From the NCBI RefSeq assembly GCF_012933445.1, contig NZ_JABBNC010000004.1:248001-312000 (forward strand): a stretch of 64,000 nt of DNA, written 5' to 3'. A program made the translations under genes and the position numbers. The notes below the pieces were generated by a model that made no database searches, had not been told where the DNA came from, and saw nothing but the letters and a program-made list of their open reading frames with translations. Position 1 is the first letter of the stretch. Every line of letters starts with the position of its first letter. Positions 2,552-10,066 of this stretch are shown one piece after another. Origin of the DNA: Actinoplanes sp. TBRC 11911 (GTDB lineage Bacteria > Actinomycetota > Actinomycetes > Mycobacteriales > Micromonosporaceae).

Positions 2552-2988
2552 GGCCAGGAGACTCCTGCGTCGAGTCGCTGATCGAGCAGCCGGGCGAGCG
2601 GGACGGTCTCGCCGTCCCCGCCGCCGGCGCCGATGATCAGCCGGGGCGTGCTGGGGGAGAGGTCTGCGCCCGTCAAACGAGCGCGCAGCGAGGCGGGCAC
2701 GGTGAGCACGTAGTACTCCCCGTCCTCACCGACGGCGACCGAACGGTTCGACTTCAGATACCAACCCCGGACGTGCGTCCGGTACGTGGCGCGGCCGTCG
2801 AACGCGCGGGCGCTCAGGGGATGCGGTGGGATGCCTCGCTCGATGGCGCGGCGGACGAAGCCGGCGAGCAGGTCGTGCGCCTCGCGGGCCTCGGCCGCCC
2901 GGTCCGCGTCGAGCGCCGCCGCGTGCCCGGCGATCGCCTGCCGGCGCCGCCGCGTCCACTCGGTCTGCTCGGTCCGCTTGTCGGCCAT
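2548..2988 (-). CDS. Hypothetical protein upstream of DD-carboxypeptidase
   Basis: A 146-residue soluble protein that I do not recognise. I chose the ATG at 2988 (MADKRTEQTEWTRRRRQ) because a frame open to 3042 has no better ribosome site. The N-terminal half is charged and helical (RRRRQAIAGHAAALDADRAA). The C-terminal half looks like beta structure (YRTHVRGWYLKSNRSVAVG, YYVLTVPASL). There is no signal peptide or membrane segment. The stop overlaps the start of the carboxypeptidase gene in an ATGA arrangement, which implies translational coupling; a link to cell-wall metabolism is inference from that position only. Confidence 0.65.
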   Translation of the reverse strand: MADKRTEQTEWTRRRRQAIAGHAAALDADRAAEAREAHDLLAGFVRRAIERGIPPHPLSARAFDGRATYRTHVRGWYLKSNRSVAVGEDGEYYVLTVPASLRARLTGADLSPSTPRLIIGAGGGDGETVPLARLLDQRLDAGVSWP

Positions 2989-3180
2989 GGATGCGACCCT
3001 AGGTGATCCGGCCGGGGCGCGGCCACCCCTTGAACTTTCCACCGATTCCGGGGAATGCCGGTGCCACCATTTGAATGGGGCGGAAAAAAGAATTGCGTTT
3101 TATCCGCCGATGTGTTGCGCGAGCAGCCGGTTACGAGCAACACTTGGGCGCGGCCGATTCGGATTGACTCGGGAGTCGTT

Positions 3181-3528
3181 ATGGCGCGGCAGGTAATCAC
3201 CACTCTGATCGACGATCTGGATGGAAAGAAGGCGGACCGCACGGTCGAGTTCAGCCTGGACGGCATCAACTACACGATCGACCTTTCCGAGGCCAATGCC
3301 GGAAAGTTGCGGAAGGCGCTCGATCCCTACATCTCCGCGGGCACCCGGTTGGGCCGCTCCGCGGTCGGCCGTATCCCGGCTCGCCGCGGCTTCGCGGGCC
3401 GAACGGCAAGCTCCCGCGACGAAAACCGCATGATCCGCGAGTGGGCTGTCGCAAACGGACACCAGATCTCGGAGCGCGGCCGCATTCCGCAGAGCGTGGC
3501 CGACGCGTACCGGGCAACCAAGCGCTGA
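3181..3528 (+). CDS. lsr2: Lsr2 family nucleoid-associated protein
   Basis: A 115-residue protein beginning MARQVITTLIDDLDGKKADR, the typical Lsr2 N-terminal dimerisation region (residues 1-60). The C-terminal DNA-binding domain carries IREWAVANGHQISERGRIP, including the R-G-R hook that inserts into the minor groove of AT-rich DNA. Lsr2 is the actinobacterial functional counterpart of H-NS: it bridges DNA and silences acquired genes. Length and motifs match the family, so I start at ATG 3181 rather than at the upstream frame opening at 3055. The gene is single, with a hairpin terminator following at 3552. Confidence 0.96.
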   Translation: MARQVITTLIDDLDGKKADRTVEFSLDGINYTIDLSEANAGKLRKALDPYISAGTRLGRSAVGRIPARRGFAGRTASSRDENRMIREWAVANGHQISERGRIPQSVADAYRATKR

Positions 3529-3551
3529 CGGCTGCCGCGCCACCCGCCAAG

Positions 3552-3582
3552 GACGCGGCGCATAAGGTGCCGCGTCGATTTT
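3552..3582 (+). terminator. Rho-independent-type terminator after lsr2
   Basis: A perfect 8-bp stem (GACGCGGC / GCCGCGTC, 3552-3559 with 3569-3576) with a 9-base loop, followed by GATTTT. It starts 24 bases after the lsr2 stop. A second G+C-rich hairpin with a 9-bp stem (3620-3628 with 3636-3644) follows without a T-tract and could serve the region from the other side. Confidence 0.7.
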
Positions 3583-3789
3583 CTGCCGCCATCGGCTAAC
3601 CGCCCGGCAGCCCAACCCCGCCCCGGCGTTTTCGGCGCCGGGGCGATTCGTGCGGCGGCCGGCGTCCACGCTGACGCAACAGTGCGAAGGCGCGGCAACA
3701 ATGCAGCGAGGCGCCGGCCGGATGCGAAACAGCAGCCAGGGATGCGAATGCGACCCGGTCGAAGACGCCCGGGCCGCTCGCGCTATTCG

Positions 3790-4671
3790 TCAGGAAACCC
3801 GGAGCCTGGGCAGTCGCGCGGCCACCGTTTCCAGCACCTTTTCGTCGCCCGCGTACCAGCTGGACTCGCGCGGCCAATGGGTGATCGCGTCGGTGAAACC
3901 CAGGGCACGGGCCCGCCCGACCGCGTCCTCGAAGGCATCGACGCTGCTCAACGAAAACTCCGGGCCGGAATCCAGGTTCAGATAGCGCGGGACGGCGTCG
4001 CGGGGACGGCCCGCGGCGTCGAGTGCCTCGTCGAAGCGGGACGACGCGTCGGCCACCGATTGCCACCACGCCTCTTGATCGTCGCTGAACATCGTCCCGG
4101 TCGTCGTCCACCCGTCGCCGTTCGCGGCGGCGTACCGCAAAGAGCGTGGGCCGTTCGCGGCGATGATGAACGGTGGCCGCGGCTGCTGCACCGCGCCGGG
4201 CAGGCTGCGCGCGTCGACGGCCGCGTAGTAGGAACCGCGCCACGTCGTCGACTCGCTCTTGAGGATCGTCTCGAGCAGGTCCACGAACTCGGTGAACCGG
4301 TCGACCCGCTCGCGTGGCGACAGCTCGCCGCCGCCGAGCACCGCCGAGTCGAAGCCCGCGCCGCCCGCTCCGAGGCCGAGCAGAAGCCGGCCCTCCGAGA
4401 TGTCGTCCAGCGCGGTCACCTCACGAGCGAAGTGCACCGGGTGCCGGAAGTTCGAACTGGCGACGAAGAACCCGAGCTTGATCCGCCGGGTCACCATCGC
4501 GGCCGCGGTCAGCGTGGGCACCGAGTCGAACCAGGGGCCCTCGATCAGGTCACGCCAGCCGAGATGGTCGTACGTCCACGCGTGGTCGAAGCCGTATTCC
4601 TCGGCGCGCTGCCAGCGACGCCCGGCGACGGACCACCGCTGGTCGGGAAGGATCACGATGCCAATACGCAC
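3790..4671 (-). CDS. LLM-class (luciferase-like) flavin-dependent oxidoreductase
   Basis: A 293-residue TIM-barrel protein of the bacterial luciferase/F420-dependent oxidoreductase superfamily. It starts MRIGIVILPDQRW. Family hallmarks are the HAWTYDHLGW strand-loop near residues 29-38, the RIKLGFFVASSNFRHPVHFA segment, and the GRLLLGLGAGG turn that contacts the cofactor phosphate. Whether it uses FMN or F420 cannot be told, although another gene in this window (fgd, 9062) shows that the host makes F420. The gene ends 13 bases before... its neighbour on the same strand is the MarR regulator, whose stop lies 12 bases upstream of this start, so the two probably form one transcript. Confidence 0.85.
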   Translation of the reverse strand: MRIGIVILPDQRWSVAGRRWQRAEEYGFDHAWTYDHLGWRDLIEGPWFDSVPTLTAAAMVTRRIKLGFFVASSNFRHPVHFAREVTALDDISEGRLLLGLGAGGAGFDSAVLGGGELSPRERVDRFTEFVDLLETILKSESTTWRGSYYAAVDARSLPGAVQQPRPPFIIAANGPRSLRYAAANGDGWTTTGTMFSDDQEAWWQSVADASSRFDEALDAAGRPRDAVPRYLNLDSGPEFSLSSVDAFEDAVGRARALGFTDAITHWPRESSWYAGDEKVLETVAARLPRLRVS

Positions 4672-4683
4672 CCGGTGACGGTA

Positions 4684-5145
4684 CTACGCCGTACGCAAGC
4701 CGCCGTTGGCCTCGTCATTCACCTCGGACGCGCTGGCGAAGGCCTGTAACGCGTCGACGAACCCCTGCCGGGCCGCCGGGGTCATCCGATCGAGCACCGT
4801 GGCGAGTGCCTCCCGGCGTCGTTCGCGCAGATCATCGAGCAGGCGACGGGCCGAGGTGGTGAGCACCAGACGCACCTCGCGGCGGTCGCGCGGATCGGGC
4901 ACGCGGCGCAGCAGACCGGTCGCTTCGAGGCGGTCGCAGAGCCGGCTCGCGGACGACGGCACCACGTCCAGCGCGTCGGCCAGCCGGCTCATGTTGGTGT
5001 GCCGGTTGGTCGCGATGATCGTGAGCACGCGCAGCTGCGCCGGGGGCACCGCGGGTGATTGGGCGAGCCGGGCGGTGTCGAGGACGGCCACCAGCGCATC
5101 GACCGTCGACTCGACAGCCGAAGCGACGTCGGTGACCCGCTCCAT
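4684..5145 (-). CDS. MarR family transcriptional regulator
   Basis: A winged-helix regulator of 153 residues if started at ATG 5145, which has an AAGGAA ribosome site 8 bases upstream. A GTG at 5193 would add 16 residues but lacks such a site. The recognition region reads NMSRLADALDVVPSSASRLC, followed by the wing DPRDRREVRLVLT, the classic MarR signature. MarR dimers usually repress neighbouring genes and are released by small phenolic or oxidised ligands. The adjacent downstream oxidoreductase (12-base gap) is the likely regulated partner; the ligand is unknown. Confidence 0.88.
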   Translation of the reverse strand: MERVTDVASAVESTVDALVAVLDTARLAQSPAVPPAQLRVLTIIATNRHTNMSRLADALDVVPSSASRLCDRLEATGLLRRVPDPRDRREVRLVLTTSARRLLDDLRERRREALATVLDRMTPAARQGFVDALQAFASASEVNDEANGGLRTA

Positions 5146-5221
5146 GTCGGATATTCCTTCTGCAGGACCTGCTCGATACTCCGCCGTAGCCACTACCCAC
5201 CGCGGGGGGAAACCATGCCGC

Positions 5222-6349
5222 TCATCGAAGCCAATCCAGGCAGACGATGACCGCGTCGTCCTCGAGATCGGCTCCGCCGTGGTATTCGCGTAGCCCTCTC
5301 ACCACCGTACCCACCGCCTCGGTCGGTGGCTGCAGCCGAGTCCCACGCAGGGCGGTGAGCAGGGCGGATACCCCGTACGGTGGGCGGCCGCCGGGCGCCG
5401 CGCCGTGCACGCCGTCACTGACCACGAGCAGCCGGTCACCGGCCTGGAGCTGGAATTTCTGGGTCTCGTACCGACTGTCACCGAACATGCCGAGCGGCAA
5501 CTGCTCGTCCAGCGTGACCGGCCGGATCTCGCCCTGGCGCGCGATCATGGCACGGGGAGAGCCCGCGTCGACCGCCTCCACGAAACCGTCCGACAGGTCG
5601 ATTTCGAGCAAAAGCGTTGCCACGTACGCCGTGCCGCCGTGCCGTGAGTAGACGGCGTCCGACGCCAGCTCCGCCTGTTCGACGATGCCGGCACCGGATC
5701 GGCGGGCGTTGCGCATCGCGTTGACGGCCACGGTGGTGAGCAGCGCCGCCTCGATGCCGTCGCCGTGCCCGTTCAGCACGGTCAGCGTGAGGCGATCACC
5801 GGTGACCGACCAGTCGTAGTGATCCCCGTACATCGCGTACGCCGGTTCGAGCGCCCCGGCCAGCCGGAACCGTTCGCCGCTGAGTGAACGCCCGGGCAGC
5901 AGGTCCCATTGGAGTTCGGCGGCCATGGTGAGCCGTTGCCGGCGCGTGACCTTGCGATAACGGTCGGTGTCGTTGGTGGCCGTACGCAGAGCCATCGCGA
6001 GCTCGTCGGCGATCTCGGTCAGTTCTTGTATGGCGGCTCGATCGGGCTCCGGTGTGGTTTCGACGCGCAGGACGCCGAGCCGGTCACCCCACACGGTCAG
6101 CGGCAGGAACACGCGACGGCCGTCCACGACGGGTTGCTGGCTGCCGAAGCAGCGGAGTTCCAGGGCGCCGCCGGCCGGACCGTCCGGGTCGACCACGGGC
6201 CAGAGGCCGGACATGGTGAGGTCGCCGAGCAGGATCTCGGCCCCGGTCGCGCCGTGGGTGTCGCGGAGGCGCGTCACGAGCGCCTCGGGGAGGCGATCGG
6301 GCGGTGTTAGCCGCAGGAGCGATCCGACGGATGCGGGGCGGTCGGACAC
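5222..6349 (-). CDS. SpoIIE-type PP2C serine phosphatase with N-terminal sensory region
   Basis: A 375-residue protein started at GTG 6349, which has a perfect AAGGAG site 5 bases upstream; an ATG at 6397 gives no such signal. Residues about 1-130 look like a small GAF-like sensory module; about 135-375 form the PP2C/SpoIIE domain (AELQWDLLPGR, YGDHYDW, LNGHGDGIEAA, LVVSDGV, LEDDAVIVCLDW). Such phosphatases act in RsbU-style partner switching by dephosphorylating an anti-sigma antagonist. An RsbW-type ATPase lies 81 bases upstream on the same strand. The metal-site motif normally written GD-V-x-GHG appears as TVLNGHG, without the usual aspartate, so activity may be altered. Confidence 0.82.
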   Translation of the reverse strand: MSDRPASVGSLLRLTPPDRLPEALVTRLRDTHGATGAEILLGDLTMSGLWPVVDPDGPAGGALELRCFGSQQPVVDGRRVFLPLTVWGDRLGVLRVETTPEPDRAAIQELTEIADELAMALRTATNDTDRYRKVTRRQRLTMAAELQWDLLPGRSLSGERFRLAGALEPAYAMYGDHYDWSVTGDRLTLTVLNGHGDGIEAALLTTVAVNAMRNARRSGAGIVEQAELASDAVYSRHGGTAYVATLLLEIDLSDGFVEAVDAGSPRAMIARQGEIRPVTLDEQLPLGMFGDSRYETQKFQLQAGDRLLVVSDGVHGAAPGGRPPYGVSALLTALRGTRLQPPTEAVGTVVRGLREYHGGADLEDDAVIVCLDWLR

Positions 6350-6430
6350 TCGATCTCCTTTCCGAGGAGGCAATAGTTGCTGAGGAGCAAGCATCATAGA
6401 AGCTGGCTCTCGCGACCGCGCAACAAGGTC

Positions 6431-6829
6431 CTATGCGAACGACTTCTCAAAATGGATCAAGCTGCCCTCGCGAGGCACGGAGTGCATCCGGACGTTCTCG
6501 CTCAGTGCTTTGATCAGGAACAAGCCGCGTCCGTGTTCGCTGCCGGCACCGGGCGGCGCCGCCGTGACCGACTCCGGGTCGAAGCCGGGACCGCTGTCCA
6601 GCACGTCGATGGCGCACCGATCGTCGCCGACGTCGAGGGTCACCTCAAAGGTCTCCGCACCGGTCGCGTGGCGGATCACGTTGGCGCACGCCTCGGTGAC
6701 GGCGATCTCCAAGTCCTCGCCGCTGGCACGGTCGACGCGGAGAACGGACAGAGCGCAGCGCAACAGCCGGCGGACGGCGGGAACGCTACCCGTTTCACGC
6801 GGCAGATCCAGCCGCACCGTCATACGCAT
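6431..6829 (-). CDS. RsbW-type ATP-binding protein (anti-sigma factor kinase family)
   Basis: A 132-residue GHKL ATPase fold: N box EACANVIRHA (about residues 46-55), G1 box DSGPGFD, G2 box GRGLFLIKAL. This is the HATPase_c_2 architecture of RsbW/SpoIIAB proteins, which bind a sigma factor and phosphorylate an STAS antagonist. Immediately downstream on the same strand is the SpoIIE-type phosphatase, the natural opposing enzyme. No STAS antagonist or partner sigma factor of the SigB/SigF type is seen next to them, so the remaining partners must be encoded elsewhere. Confidence 0.88.
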   Translation of the reverse strand: MRMTVRLDLPRETGSVPAVRRLLRCALSVLRVDRASGEDLEIAVTEACANVIRHATGAETFEVTLDVGDDRCAIDVLDSGPGFDPESVTAAPPGAGSEHGRGLFLIKALSENVRMHSVPREGSLIHFEKSFA

Positions 6830-7084
6830 GACTTGATTGGTTTCCCGTTCGGCGCGTTTGCTAATCGTCCCCGCGCCGCCTTCACCCTCCGCCCCGCCCC
6901 GGCTTCAGGGCGTTGGCGAGGTGGGACGTGTCACAGGAGCCCGCACGCCGAGGTGGGCGGGGCGGCATGAGTCCGGGAGCGGAGTTGTTCATCCGGGCGG
7001 GCCTTCAGAACGTGTTATCTGGCGACGGCCCTCGCGTCTCCTATCGCGGTGGCCGGGACGCGGCCGGGATTTCGAGGGGATCAC

Positions 7085-9052
7085 ATGGCGGACCAACCCG
7101 ACATCGCTACCGTCGTCGCGGCCCGGGCCGGTGACCCGGTCGCGATCGATCGCCTGGTCGCGGGCTATCTGCCGCTGGTCTACACGATCGTCGGGCGGGC
7201 GCTCGAAGGGCACGCGGACGTCGACGACGTGGTGCAGGACGTCATGCTGCGGGTGTTGCGCAACCTGGGTGACCTGCGCGAGCCGGAGGCGTTCCGGTCG
7301 TGGCTGGTCGCGATCACCGTGCGGCAGGTGCGCGAGGTGTTCCGGGCCCGGCGGGGCGCGCCCGACCCGCTGCTGCACGAGGACCTGCGCGACCCCGGCG
7401 CCGACTTCACCGACCTGGCGATCACCCGCCTCGAACTTTCCGGCCAGCGCCGGGAGACCGCCGAGGCAACCCGCTGGCTCGACGAGGAGAACCGCGAACT
7501 GCTCTCCCTCTGGTGGCTGGAAGCCTCCGGAGAGCTCACCCGCGACGAGATCGCCGAGGCCATCGGCGTCACCCGCCAGCACGCGGCGGTCCGTGTCCAG
7601 CGCATGAAGGGCCAGCTCGAGACGGCCCGGGTCGTGGTGCGCGCGCTGTTCGCCCAGCGCTCCTGCCCCGACCTCCGCGTGCTGACGAGCGAGTGGGACG
7701 GCCGCCCGGGCGCCCTGTGGCGCAAACGCATCGCCCGCCACACCCGCGAGTGCCCGCACTGCGCCGCGTCCTGGAACGGCCTGGTCGCCGCCGAGCACCT
7801 GCTCGCCGGCATGGCCCTGGTCCCGGTGCCCGCAAGCCTGGTCGCCAAGGTCGCCGCGGCAAAGCTGGCCGGCGGCGCGGCCGCCGCTACCCCTTACGCC
7901 GCAGGCGGTTCGCACGCGGCAGGCGTGACGGGCGCGCCGCACGCGGCTGGTGGGTTGGCCCCGCCGCACGCGGCGGGTGGAGTGGCCGCGCCGCACGCGG
8001 CCGGTGGGGTCGGGGCGGCGAAGGCGGCGCACGTCGCGGCGTTCAGCCTGTCGCGGAAGATCCTGACCGCCGCGCTCTCGACGACCGTCGTCGCCGGTGG
8101 GGCCGCCGCGGTGATCGTCTACCAGAAGCATGGCGACGCGCCGGTGGCGAGCGCGCCCGCGGCCGTGCTCGGCAGCGCCGCCACGCCGCCGGCGGCGTTC
8201 CCGAGCGTGACCGCCGCGAGCAGCAGCCCGTCGGCGTCGGCGACGCCGACGACCAAGCCAAGCGTGAAACCGACCACCAAAGCGCCGGCCCAGAAGCCCG
8301 TGGTGATCGTGGCCAAGGCCAGCAAGAAGAAAGGGGTCGGCGTCTGGAAGTTCGACGGCCTCAAGGCGGCGCTGCACGACGTGGGGGCCGGGTGGTACTA
8401 CAACTGGGCCGCGAACAACAACGACGTGCCGGGGCCGGCCGGAGTCGAGTTCGTGCCGATGATCTGGGGCAAGGACAACGTCACCGATGCCACGCTCAAG
8501 CAGGTGAAGTCGGAGGGCGACGAGCTGCTCGGCTTCAACGAGCCGGACATGGGCGGGCAGGCGAACATGAGCGTCGCGGACGCGCTCGCCGCCTGGCCCA
8601 AGTTGCAGGCCACCGGGATGCGGTTGGGGAGCCCGGCCGTCGCGTACGGGGGAGACAAGGCCGGCGGCTGGCTGGACCAGTTCATGGCGGGGGCGAAATC
8701 GAAGGGCTACCGCGTCGATTTCATCACCCTGCATTGGTACGGCTCGGACTTCAGCGCCGCCGCGGTCGGGCAGTTCCTCGGATACGTCGACGCGGTGCAC
8801 AAACGTTACGGCAAGCCGATCTGGATCACCGAGTTCGGGCTGATGAACTTCTCCGGATCGCCCAAATACCCGTCCGCCGCCCAGAAAGTGACCTTCATCA
8901 AGGGCAGCACCAAGGGGCTGGAGAGCCGTTCCTACGTCGAGCGGTACGCGTGGTTCGGCCTGCCGGCGGTCGGCGACAGTGTGGACTTCGGGCTTTACGA
9001 GGACGGGGACAGCCCGACGGAGGCCGGAAAGGCGTACAAGGCAGCGGGTTAA
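7085..9052 (+). CDS. ECF sigma factor fused to zinc anti-sigma motif, membrane segment and GH128-like glycosidase
   Basis: A 655-residue fusion with start ATG 7085 behind a GAGGGGA ribosome site. Residues about 10-85 are sigma region 2 (LPLVYTIVGRALEGHADVDD, VVQDVMLRVLRNL); about 145-195 are region 4 (LTRDEIAEAIGVTRQHAAVR). A ZAS zinc motif H-x3-C-x2-C follows at H219, C223, C226. Residues about 268-315 are an Ala/Gly/His repeat linker (units like PHAAGG). One membrane helix lies at about 326-347. An extracellular linker leads to an Asl1-like GH128 domain (417-655) with candidate catalytic E486 in GFNEPD and E583 in WITEFG. GH128 enzymes act on beta-1,3-glucan. Predicted topology puts the sigma inside and the hydrolase outside. 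It reads as a membrane-tethered sigma factor with its own anti-sigma and sensor. Confidence 0.88.
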   Translation: MADQPDIATVVAARAGDPVAIDRLVAGYLPLVYTIVGRALEGHADVDDVVQDVMLRVLRNLGDLREPEAFRSWLVAITVRQVREVFRARRGAPDPLLHEDLRDPGADFTDLAITRLELSGQRRETAEATRWLDEENRELLSLWWLEASGELTRDEIAEAIGVTRQHAAVRVQRMKGQLETARVVVRALFAQRSCPDLRVLTSEWDGRPGALWRKRIARHTRECPHCAASWNGLVAAEHLLAGMALVPVPASLVAKVAAAKLAGGAAAATPYAAGGSHAAGVTGAPHAAGGLAPPHAAGGVAAPHAAGGVGAAKAAHVAAFSLSRKILTAALSTTVVAGGAAAVIVYQKHGDAPVASAPAAVLGSAATPPAAFPSVTAASSSPSASATPTTKPSVKPTTKAPAQKPVVIVAKASKKKGVGVWKFDGLKAALHDVGAGWYYNWAANNNDVPGPAGVEFVPMIWGKDNVTDATLKQVKSEGDELLGFNEPDMGGQANMSVADALAAWPKLQATGMRLGSPAVAYGGDKAGGWLDQFMAGAKSKGYRVDFITLHWYGSDFSAAAVGQFLGYVDAVHKRYGKPIWITEFGLMNFSGSPKYPSAAQKVTFIKGSTKGLESRSYVERYAWFGLPAVGDSVDFGLYEDGDSPTEAGKAYKAAG

Positions 9053-9061
9053 GGTCAGGGA

Positions 9062-10066
9062 ATGATTCGCTTCGGCTACAAAGCGTCGGCGGAACAGTTC
9101 CCGCCCCCGCGCCTGCTCGAATACGGCGTGCTGGCGGAGAAACTGGGCTTCGACTCGGTCTTCGTCAGCGACCACCTCCAGCCGTGGCGGCACGACGACG
9201 GGCACGCGCCCGCCGCGCTGCCGTGGCTCGGCGCGCTGGCCGCGAAGACCGAGCGGATCCTGATCGGCACGAGCGTGCTCACCCCGACCTTCCGATACCA
9301 CCCCGCGCTGGTGGCGCAGGCGTTCGCCACGCTGGGCCTGATCGCGCCCGGCCGGGTGATCCTCGGGGTCGGCTCCGGCGAGTCGATGAACGAGGTACCG
9401 CTGGGCCTCGAGTGGCCGGACGGCAAGGAGCGTTTCGCTCGCCTCAAGGAGGCGGTGCAGCTGATCCAGAAGCTCTGGACCGAGGACCGGGTGACCTTCG
9501 AGGGGCAGTTCTATCGGACCGACCGGGCCACCATCTATGACAAGCCGGAGCAGCCTGTCCCGATCTACATCGGGGCCTCCGGTCCCGCGGCCACCCGGCT
9601 GGCCGGCCGCATCGCCGACGGCTTCATCACCACCAGCGGCAAGGGCCGCGAGCTCTACACCGACACGCTGCTCCCGGCCGTCCGCGAGGGTGCCGAGAAG
9701 GCCGGCCGCAAGGTCGACGAGCTGGACCTGATGATCGAGGTGAAGGTCTCCTTCGACGACGACATCGACCGGGCGCTCAACGACACCCACTACTGGGGTG
9801 CGCTGGCCCTGACGCCGGACGAGAAGACCGGGGTCGAGGACCCGATCGAGATGCAGCGCCGTGCCGACGCCCTCCCGGTGGAGCGCACGGCGACCCGCTT
9901 CATCTGTTCCTCGGACCCGGACGAGCACGCCCTGCGGGTGACCGAGTATCTCGACATGGGCTTCAAGCACCTGGTGTTTCATGCGCCCGGCCCCGACCAG
10001 GAGCGGTTCCTCACCACGTACGCGGAGCGGATCCTCCCGCGGCTGCGCGAGCGGGCCGCGTCGTGA
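9062..10066 (+). CDS. fgd: F420-dependent glucose-6-phosphate dehydrogenase
   Basis: A 334-residue TIM-barrel LLM-family enzyme oxidising glucose 6-phosphate to 6-phosphogluconolactone while reducing coenzyme F420. It matches the mycobacterial FGD pattern along its length: GYKASAEQFPPPRLLEY, VSDHLQPWRHDDGHAP, GTSVLTPTFRYHPA, LGVGSGESMNEV, TTSGKGRELYTDTLLPAVRE and HLVFHAPGPDQERFL. It supplies F420H2 to F420-dependent reductases. It starts 9 bases after the sigma-hydrolase stop and overlaps the next gene by four bases (GTGA), so it is translated together with the HAD gene. Confidence 0.93.
   Translation: MIRFGYKASAEQFPPPRLLEYGVLAEKLGFDSVFVSDHLQPWRHDDGHAPAALPWLGALAAKTERILIGTSVLTPTFRYHPALVAQAFATLGLIAPGRVILGVGSGESMNEVPLGLEWPDGKERFARLKEAVQLIQKLWTEDRVTFEGQFYRTDRATIYDKPEQPVPIYIGASGPAATRLAGRIADGFITTSGKGRELYTDTLLPAVREGAEKAGRKVDELDLMIEVKVSFDDDIDRALNDTHYWGALALTPDEKTGVEDPIEMQRRADALPVERTATRFICSSDPDEHALRVTEYLDMGFKHLVFHAPGPDQERFLTTYAERILPRLRERAAS

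Follow-up and report, generated by a model that had tools for sequence, protein, structure and literature searches.

The open reading frame at 7085..9052 on the plus strand of the window (the whole stretch of 64,000 nucleotides that was analysed) appears to hold an ECF sigma factor, a zinc anti-sigma segment, a membrane helix and a glycosidase in one polypeptide, which raises the question of whether this chain is genuine and, if so, what it would sense and which genes it would switch on. The order of its domains, their conservation, a promoter motif and the genes downstream of that motif can all be read directly from the DNA. As an explanation we favour, as moderately probable, a one-polypeptide transmembrane sensor of beta-1,3-glucan that frees its own sigma domain by proteolysis; if true, this would show that bacteria can detect fungi or callose with a single protein.

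Domain architecture of the fusion

The frame runs from an ATG at 7085 to a stop at 9052 and encodes 655 amino acids, and its start codon is backed by the orthologues, whose alignment runs from M-x-x-Q on. A long antisense frame on the minus strand (6989-9982) was attributed to the high GC content of the DNA, as an artefact of composition. The initial annotation had read the N-terminal part as a complete ECF sigma factor, and this held: region 2 (residues 24-90, 7154..7354) matches Pfam Sigma70_r2 (E 1.3e-12), and the ECF superfamily model TIGR02937 covers residues 20-180 above its cut-off (E 2.9e-19, NCBIfam search), so that the protein has regions 2 and 4 only, as an ECF sigma factor should. 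Because Pfam region 4 by itself fell below its cut-off on the fusion (E 0.16), the assignment of region 4 (residues about 120-188, 7442..7648) rests on the TIGR02937 span and the model helices.

Behind the sigma domain lies the zinc anti-sigma (ZAS) segment (residues about 195-247, 7667..7825), a helical stretch in which the motif H219-x3-C223-x2-C226 was found where it had first been annotated, with its zinc ligands encoded at 7739-7741, 7751-7753 and 7760-7762. Since the Pfam domain zf-HC2 had no match on the fusion at E up to 1 (and matched one of 32 sampled sigma paralogues, nearly all from the window's genus, at E up to 0.01), the identification of this segment rests on the motif, its position and its conservation: H219, C223 and C226 are invariant in all 24 orthologues of the genus and in all 19 aligned fusions, a set of rows drawn from Actinoplanes-type and outside lineages, and the same columns also hold H/C/C in the 32 aligned paralogues. 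A Pfam search of the fusion at E up to 1 gave no RsgI-type anti-sigma domain, and its sigma and anti-sigma parts lie in a single chain.

An Ala/Gly/His-rich linker (residues 257-313, 7853..8023) of low model confidence and varying length, which we expect to be cytoplasmic, leads into a membrane helix (residues 314-346, 8024..8122), and both features stand as originally described, the helix being present in the model with a hydropathy peak at 326-344. Arg-Lys at the inner side of this helix leads us to expect an N-in, C-out topology, which would place the following Pro/Ser/Thr/Lys-rich linker (residues 347-411, 8123..8317; model confidence mostly low) outside the cell. In the full-length AlphaFold2 model (mean pLDDT 66, pTM 0.43), the GH128 domain, in which most blocks exceed 80-90, and the helices round the zinc motif are confident, and helix 314-346 lies between two low-confidence stretches. 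Two aspects of the modelling count against our preferred explanation: region 2 is poor in the full-length model, and the models of the fusion show no defined cis arrangement of sigma and anti-sigma parts. A fold search with the sigma/anti-sigma model matched ECF sigma factors and their complexes weakly (best E 3.0e-4, TM-score 0.28 by query).

Conservation and spread

An assembly or sequencing error joining two genes was ruled out, as the fusion is intact and without a stop in all 24 genomes of the window's genus (the window's own included) among the 40 searched, and was found at nine loci outside the genus besides. The remaining 16 of the 40 genomes came from other families of the order; none had the whole fusion among the matches listed, which counts against our explanation, and in one of them (G035) GH128 occurs as a frame by itself. 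The outside loci came from a scan of named genomes with the fusion alignment, the best 80 loci of which were examined: 42 bear the GH128 fusion, 33 of them in Actinoplanes-type genera, which places the window's organism in the Actinoplanes group, and the other nine in two Cellulomonas, two Micromonospora, two Planotetraspora, an Actinacidiphila, a Trebonia and a Frankia MAG. An Actinotalea locus is a further candidate that is cut by the end of its contig. The Frankia MAG (L232) has a tandem pair of sigma-GH128 fusions (2722-4911 and 5075-7120), next to which lies a thaumatin-like gene in divergent orientation.

Large parts of the sigma domain are invariant among the 24 orthologues of the genus, and the Ala/Gly/His and outer linkers are variable. 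Loss of key residues in homologues would have spoken against a working protein, and here sigma, zinc-ligand and GH residues were all kept.

The GH128 outer domain

The outer domain (residues 412-655, 8318..9049) had been annotated as GH128-type with both candidate catalytic glutamates, an assignment that could be both confirmed and narrowed to subgroup I by its fold and these two residues. A Pfam search matched PF11790 (Glyco_hydro_cc) to residues 435-651 (E 2.2e-52), and the nearest structure, that of the subgroup I endo-beta-1,3-glucanase AmGH128_I (6UAQ), is 59% identical (E 1.2e-91 by sequence) and superimposes with a TM-score of 0.96, normalised by the 241-residue target. The candidate glutamates E486 (8540-8542) and E583 (8831-8833), which from the GH128 family we take to be the acid/base and the nucleophile, align by sequence with the residues mutated in structure entries E102A and E199A/E199Q, and are invariant in all 24 orthologues of the genus and all 19 aligned fusions. 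AmGH128_I thus has the same fold and the same two glutamates, but is known here as a solved enzyme domain, whereas in the window its counterpart is joined to a sigma factor as the outer part.

An outer enzyme fold need not be an active enzyme, and the domain could be a catalytically idle, lectin-like receptor that binds beta-1,3-glucan uncut, with signalling otherwise the same. The GH10 domain of Clostridium thermocellum RsgI6 sets such a precedent, with binding kept and very low activity reported (PMC4711584), and structures of GH128 subgroup VII bear the title of oligosaccharide-binding proteins. However, the nearest structure belongs to subgroup I and not to subgroup VII, and both glutamates are kept in every aligned fusion, so we consider an idle domain unlikely and regard the outer part as a probable beta-1,3-glucanase.

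A promoter-like motif shared with glucanase genes

Aligned upstream regions of the orthologues revealed the motif TGTTATC, 15-16 bases, CGTCTCC, which was present with at most two mismatches within 250 nt in 23 of the 24 (17 of them exact), compared with 2 of 1200 base-shuffled upstream controls. In the one orthologue without it (L025, genome G021), an exact core site lies 1.37 kb upstream, and the interval holds no clear gene. In the window, the motif takes the form of a predicted ECF-type promoter, TGTTATC-N15-CGTCTCC, at 7013..7041 on the plus strand (-35 at 7013-7019, -10 at 7035-7041), 43 nt 5' of the ATG, and the fusion gene is predicted to be autoregulated through it.

The core pattern TGTTATC-N15-17-GTCTCC has 108 sites, spread over 64 of the 67 genomes searched in the genus, against two for the reversed pattern. 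Fusion genes lie downstream of 58 of these sites, 57 of them adjacent and the remaining one being the G021 site at 1.37 kb, whose connection to the gene is unproven; among the later 73 loci there were 38 such self loci, all with both the sigma and the GH128 parts. The other sites precede AfsR-type regulators with BTAD and AAA domains (23), GH16 genes with a ricin-type lectin (10), DUF1996 genes (9), a GH64 gene with CBM6 and an alginate-lyase-like gene (one each), and six have no assigned gene. The one GH16 protein tested (L074) matches beta-1,3-glucanases and laminarinases of solved structure; its gene lies between two others, at 1612-2361 and 3892-5139, which encode a GH16-like protein carrying CBM5/12 and a GH46 protein. 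At another locus (L185), the motif is directed towards a Ser/Thr kinase-type gene from a position immediately beyond the gene's 3' end, and the frame at L174 is alike by eye.

At the DUF1996 sites, the -35 and -10 elements are kept while the nine spacers differ, a sign of selection. The GH16 sites have almost the same spacer throughout, and most AfsR-type sites share a different one, which points to few inherited events and weighs against our explanation, as does the finding that none of nine stand-alone GH128 genes of the genus has a motif site at fewer than three mismatches in 250 nt. In the genome that contains the window, exact sites lie before just two genes, the fusion gene and an AfsR-type gene, again a point against our explanation, and the four DUF1996 and two GH16 genes there lack a site at fewer than three mismatches. 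The direct response in this strain may therefore be small and pass through the AfsR-type regulator. A shorter pattern, TGTTATC-N15-17-CGTC, gave five sites there against one in the control, the three extra ones with no convincing downstream gene, and allowing two mismatches gave 34 sites against six for the reversed control, too noisy for assignment.

The motif in other lineages

Among the best 80 loci, 41 of the 42 GH128 fusion genes and 29 of 37 Streptomyces-type relatives are preceded within 300 nt by a copy of the motif that has at most two mismatches. Because these relatives include proteins with a CAP outer domain, the motif follows the sigma lineage and not the ligand. A set of 20 genomes from outside the genus contained 16 sites of the exact core (control, none), of which 13 are self sites, a proportion that does not favour our explanation, one (L284) lies before another sigma frame, and two (L293 and L294) before other genes.

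In the nine fusion-bearing genomes outside the genus, GTTATC-N15-16-GTCTCC was found at nine sites in seven genomes (reversed control, none): four at the fusion gene, two before other frames, one before a GH128 protein lacking a sigma part in a Micromonospora, and, in Trebonia, one before a GH64 gene and one before a thaumatin-like gene. The sole site found in each of the two Cellulomonas and two Planotetraspora genomes is the gene's own, which also counts against our explanation. A thaumatin-like gene stands divergent to the fusion at four of the nine outside loci (Trebonia, both Planotetraspora and the Frankia MAG; L271 is the fourth of the loci with this neighbour), and a motif faces it, with one, two and one mismatches, in the three loci tested. 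Thaumatin-like proteins bind or cut beta-1,3-glucan. The initial annotation had guessed at sensing of this polymer, and a promoter motif common to beta-1,3-glucanase and thaumatin-like genes lends the guess independent support at the level of sequence, suggesting beta-1,3-glucan as the likely ligand.

Gene neighbourhood and the source of the glycan

In the genus, the fusion is syntenic with genes for a MarR regulator (30 of 33 loci), a SpoIIE-type phosphatase (33 of 33), a HATPase (31 of 33) and a luciferase-like protein (33 of 33). In the window, the phosphatase gene (5222-6397) and the HATPase gene (6431-6829), which we take to be RsbW-like, both lie on the minus strand, divergent to the fusion. 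These neighbours, together with the AfsR-type regulator under the motif and the control of development by the ECF52 protein SCO4117 (PMC5826349), would suit a protein that senses an internal or self-made glycan, such as a polymer of its own wall, sporangium or spore matrix, and serves development in place of responding to foreign glucan. But the synteny is absent from all 10 loci examined outside the genus, and being conserved within the genus only, it was set aside as a functional link; enzymes of the sporangium matrix in A. missouriensis are reported as GH5 (PMC12691653), and the other motif genes include beta-1,3-glucanases and thaumatin-like proteins. A developmental role thus seems somewhat less likely even than an idle GH128 domain, and a foreign beta-1,3-glucan remains the signal we favour.

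Which sigma factor reads the motif

That the sigma domain of the fusion reads the motif is our inference, and with many ECF paralogues in the genus the motif might belong to a different ECF sigma factor, the fusion being one target among others. One locus in genome G016 (L082) bears on this: a motif is followed by an alginate-lyase-like gene and then directly by a sigma paralogue (58% identity) from outside the sample of 32, and because this paralogue sits behind a motif-bearing gene, the motif may serve other sigma factors. This locus (G016:C1:4244500-4252500, 5850-3536 on the minus strand) may hold a further sensor that differs in its outer part but shares the promoter. Yet the motif precedes 41 of the 42 fusions, as against none of the 32 sampled paralogues at fewer than three mismatches in 250 nt (the starts of L122 and L123 are uncertain), and ECF factors are usually autoregulated. 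We therefore regard control by a different sigma factor as improbable. A cell-surface glucanase with a vestigial sigma domain, for which we found no supporting point, is most improbable of all, as the sigma part is better conserved than the linkers and many of its columns are invariant across genera.

Proposed mechanism

In the mechanism that we propose for a one-chain glucan sensor, the ZAS segment would keep regions 2 and 4 inactive in cis at rest, and the single helix would hold them at the membrane. The outer GH128 domain would bind, and probably cleave, beta-1,3-glucan, whether of fungal or oomycete origin or from plant callose. Once this ligand, the presumed signal, is engaged, the chain would be cut within the membrane helix or close to it and the anti-sigma part trimmed, so that the sigma domain would be freed by proteolysis. 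It would then act on TGTTATC-N15/16-CGTCTCC promoters, namely those of its own gene, as amplification, and of the AfsR-type regulator, as well as, in some members of the genus and certain lineages beyond it, those of secreted GH16, GH64 and GH128 enzymes, DUF1996 proteins and thaumatin-like proteins. More tentatively, and with slightly less than an even chance in our estimation, one gene may hold a complete self-amplifying glucan response, with an active GH128 sensor, its own sigma output and an anti-fungal or glucan-harvesting regulon (GH16, GH64, GH128, DUF1996, thaumatin-like and AfsR-type genes). The motif and its glucanase and thaumatin-like genes supply a testable ligand, beta-1,3-glucan, testable promoters and a simple reporter system.

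Relation to known systems

The initial annotation had named ECF52 and ECF53 as groups with such extensions, and the available text of two sources bears this out: ECF52/ECF53 proteins combine an ECF sigma factor, a zinc-finger anti-sigma domain and a transmembrane part in one chain (PMC8999054), and some have predicted glycosyl-hydrolase catalytic and carbohydrate-binding domains, which are without experimental test (PMC10766802). The fusion, with its C-terminal zinc anti-sigma segment, membrane helix and carbohydrate-related extension, has this architecture, and because glycosyl-hydrolase domains are reported in some members (PMC10766802), the combination of sigma, anti-sigma and GH parts is already known. 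What we found here is the GH128 subgroup I identity of the outer domain, the promoter and the predicted glucan regulon, none of which appeared among the matches listed in the literature searched, as far as the text of those sources was available. Within the same limits, "sigma factor" and "GH128" occurred together only for a lignocellulose consortium, and ECF53 was named only in PMC8999054 and PMC10766802.

For IutY, release by proteolysis has been described, and the same has been proposed for ECF48, ECF52 and ECF53 (PMC8999054, PMC5826349). IutY of Pseudomonas putida (ECF243) resembles the fusion in holding sigma and anti-sigma in one membrane protein, which is activated by regulated proteolysis, but differs in serving iron-siderophore cell-surface signalling, and no enzyme domain is described for it in the available text (PMC8999054). 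In the studied ECF52 protein SCO4117, the outer part is a carbohydrate-binding module in place of an enzyme fold, and the reported motif is CSGYN-17-SRHA (PMC5826349), as opposed to TGTTATC-N15/16-CGTCTCC for the fusion. The nearest working analogy is SigI6/RsgI6 of C. thermocellum, which likewise has an outer GH fold as polysaccharide sensor and an autoregulated sigma factor, with a regulon rich in enzymes for the sensed polymer (a GH10 sensor paired with xylanase promoters; PMC4711584). In contrast to the fusion, however, that system consists of two proteins, belongs to another sigma family, has an RsgI anti-sigma and pairs GH10 with xylan, not GH128 with beta-1,3-glucan.

A family with exchanged outer domains

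The wider family swaps its outer domain (GH128, CAP, AbfB, beta-helix, GH99, DUF4185 or Lcl_C) on a common sigma/anti-sigma chassis. Domain models in the outer parts of the 32 sampled paralogues comprised 15 beta-helix, six AbfB, four Lcl_C, two DUF4185 and one GH99, and the Streptomyces-type relatives (L242-L279 without L271), with the same sigma/ZAS/membrane chassis, bear CAP in 26 of 35 cases and AbfB in five of 35, these five (L249, L260, L266, L274 and L278) all being without the motif. One-chain sigma/anti-sigma sensors with carbohydrate-related outer domains are thus widespread in the Actinobacteria sampled and, if our explanation of the fusion is right, would form a modular sensor with an exchangeable outer domain. 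In genome G022, two fused sigma paralogues stand as a tandem pair (L118, 991-3312 and 3465-5948).
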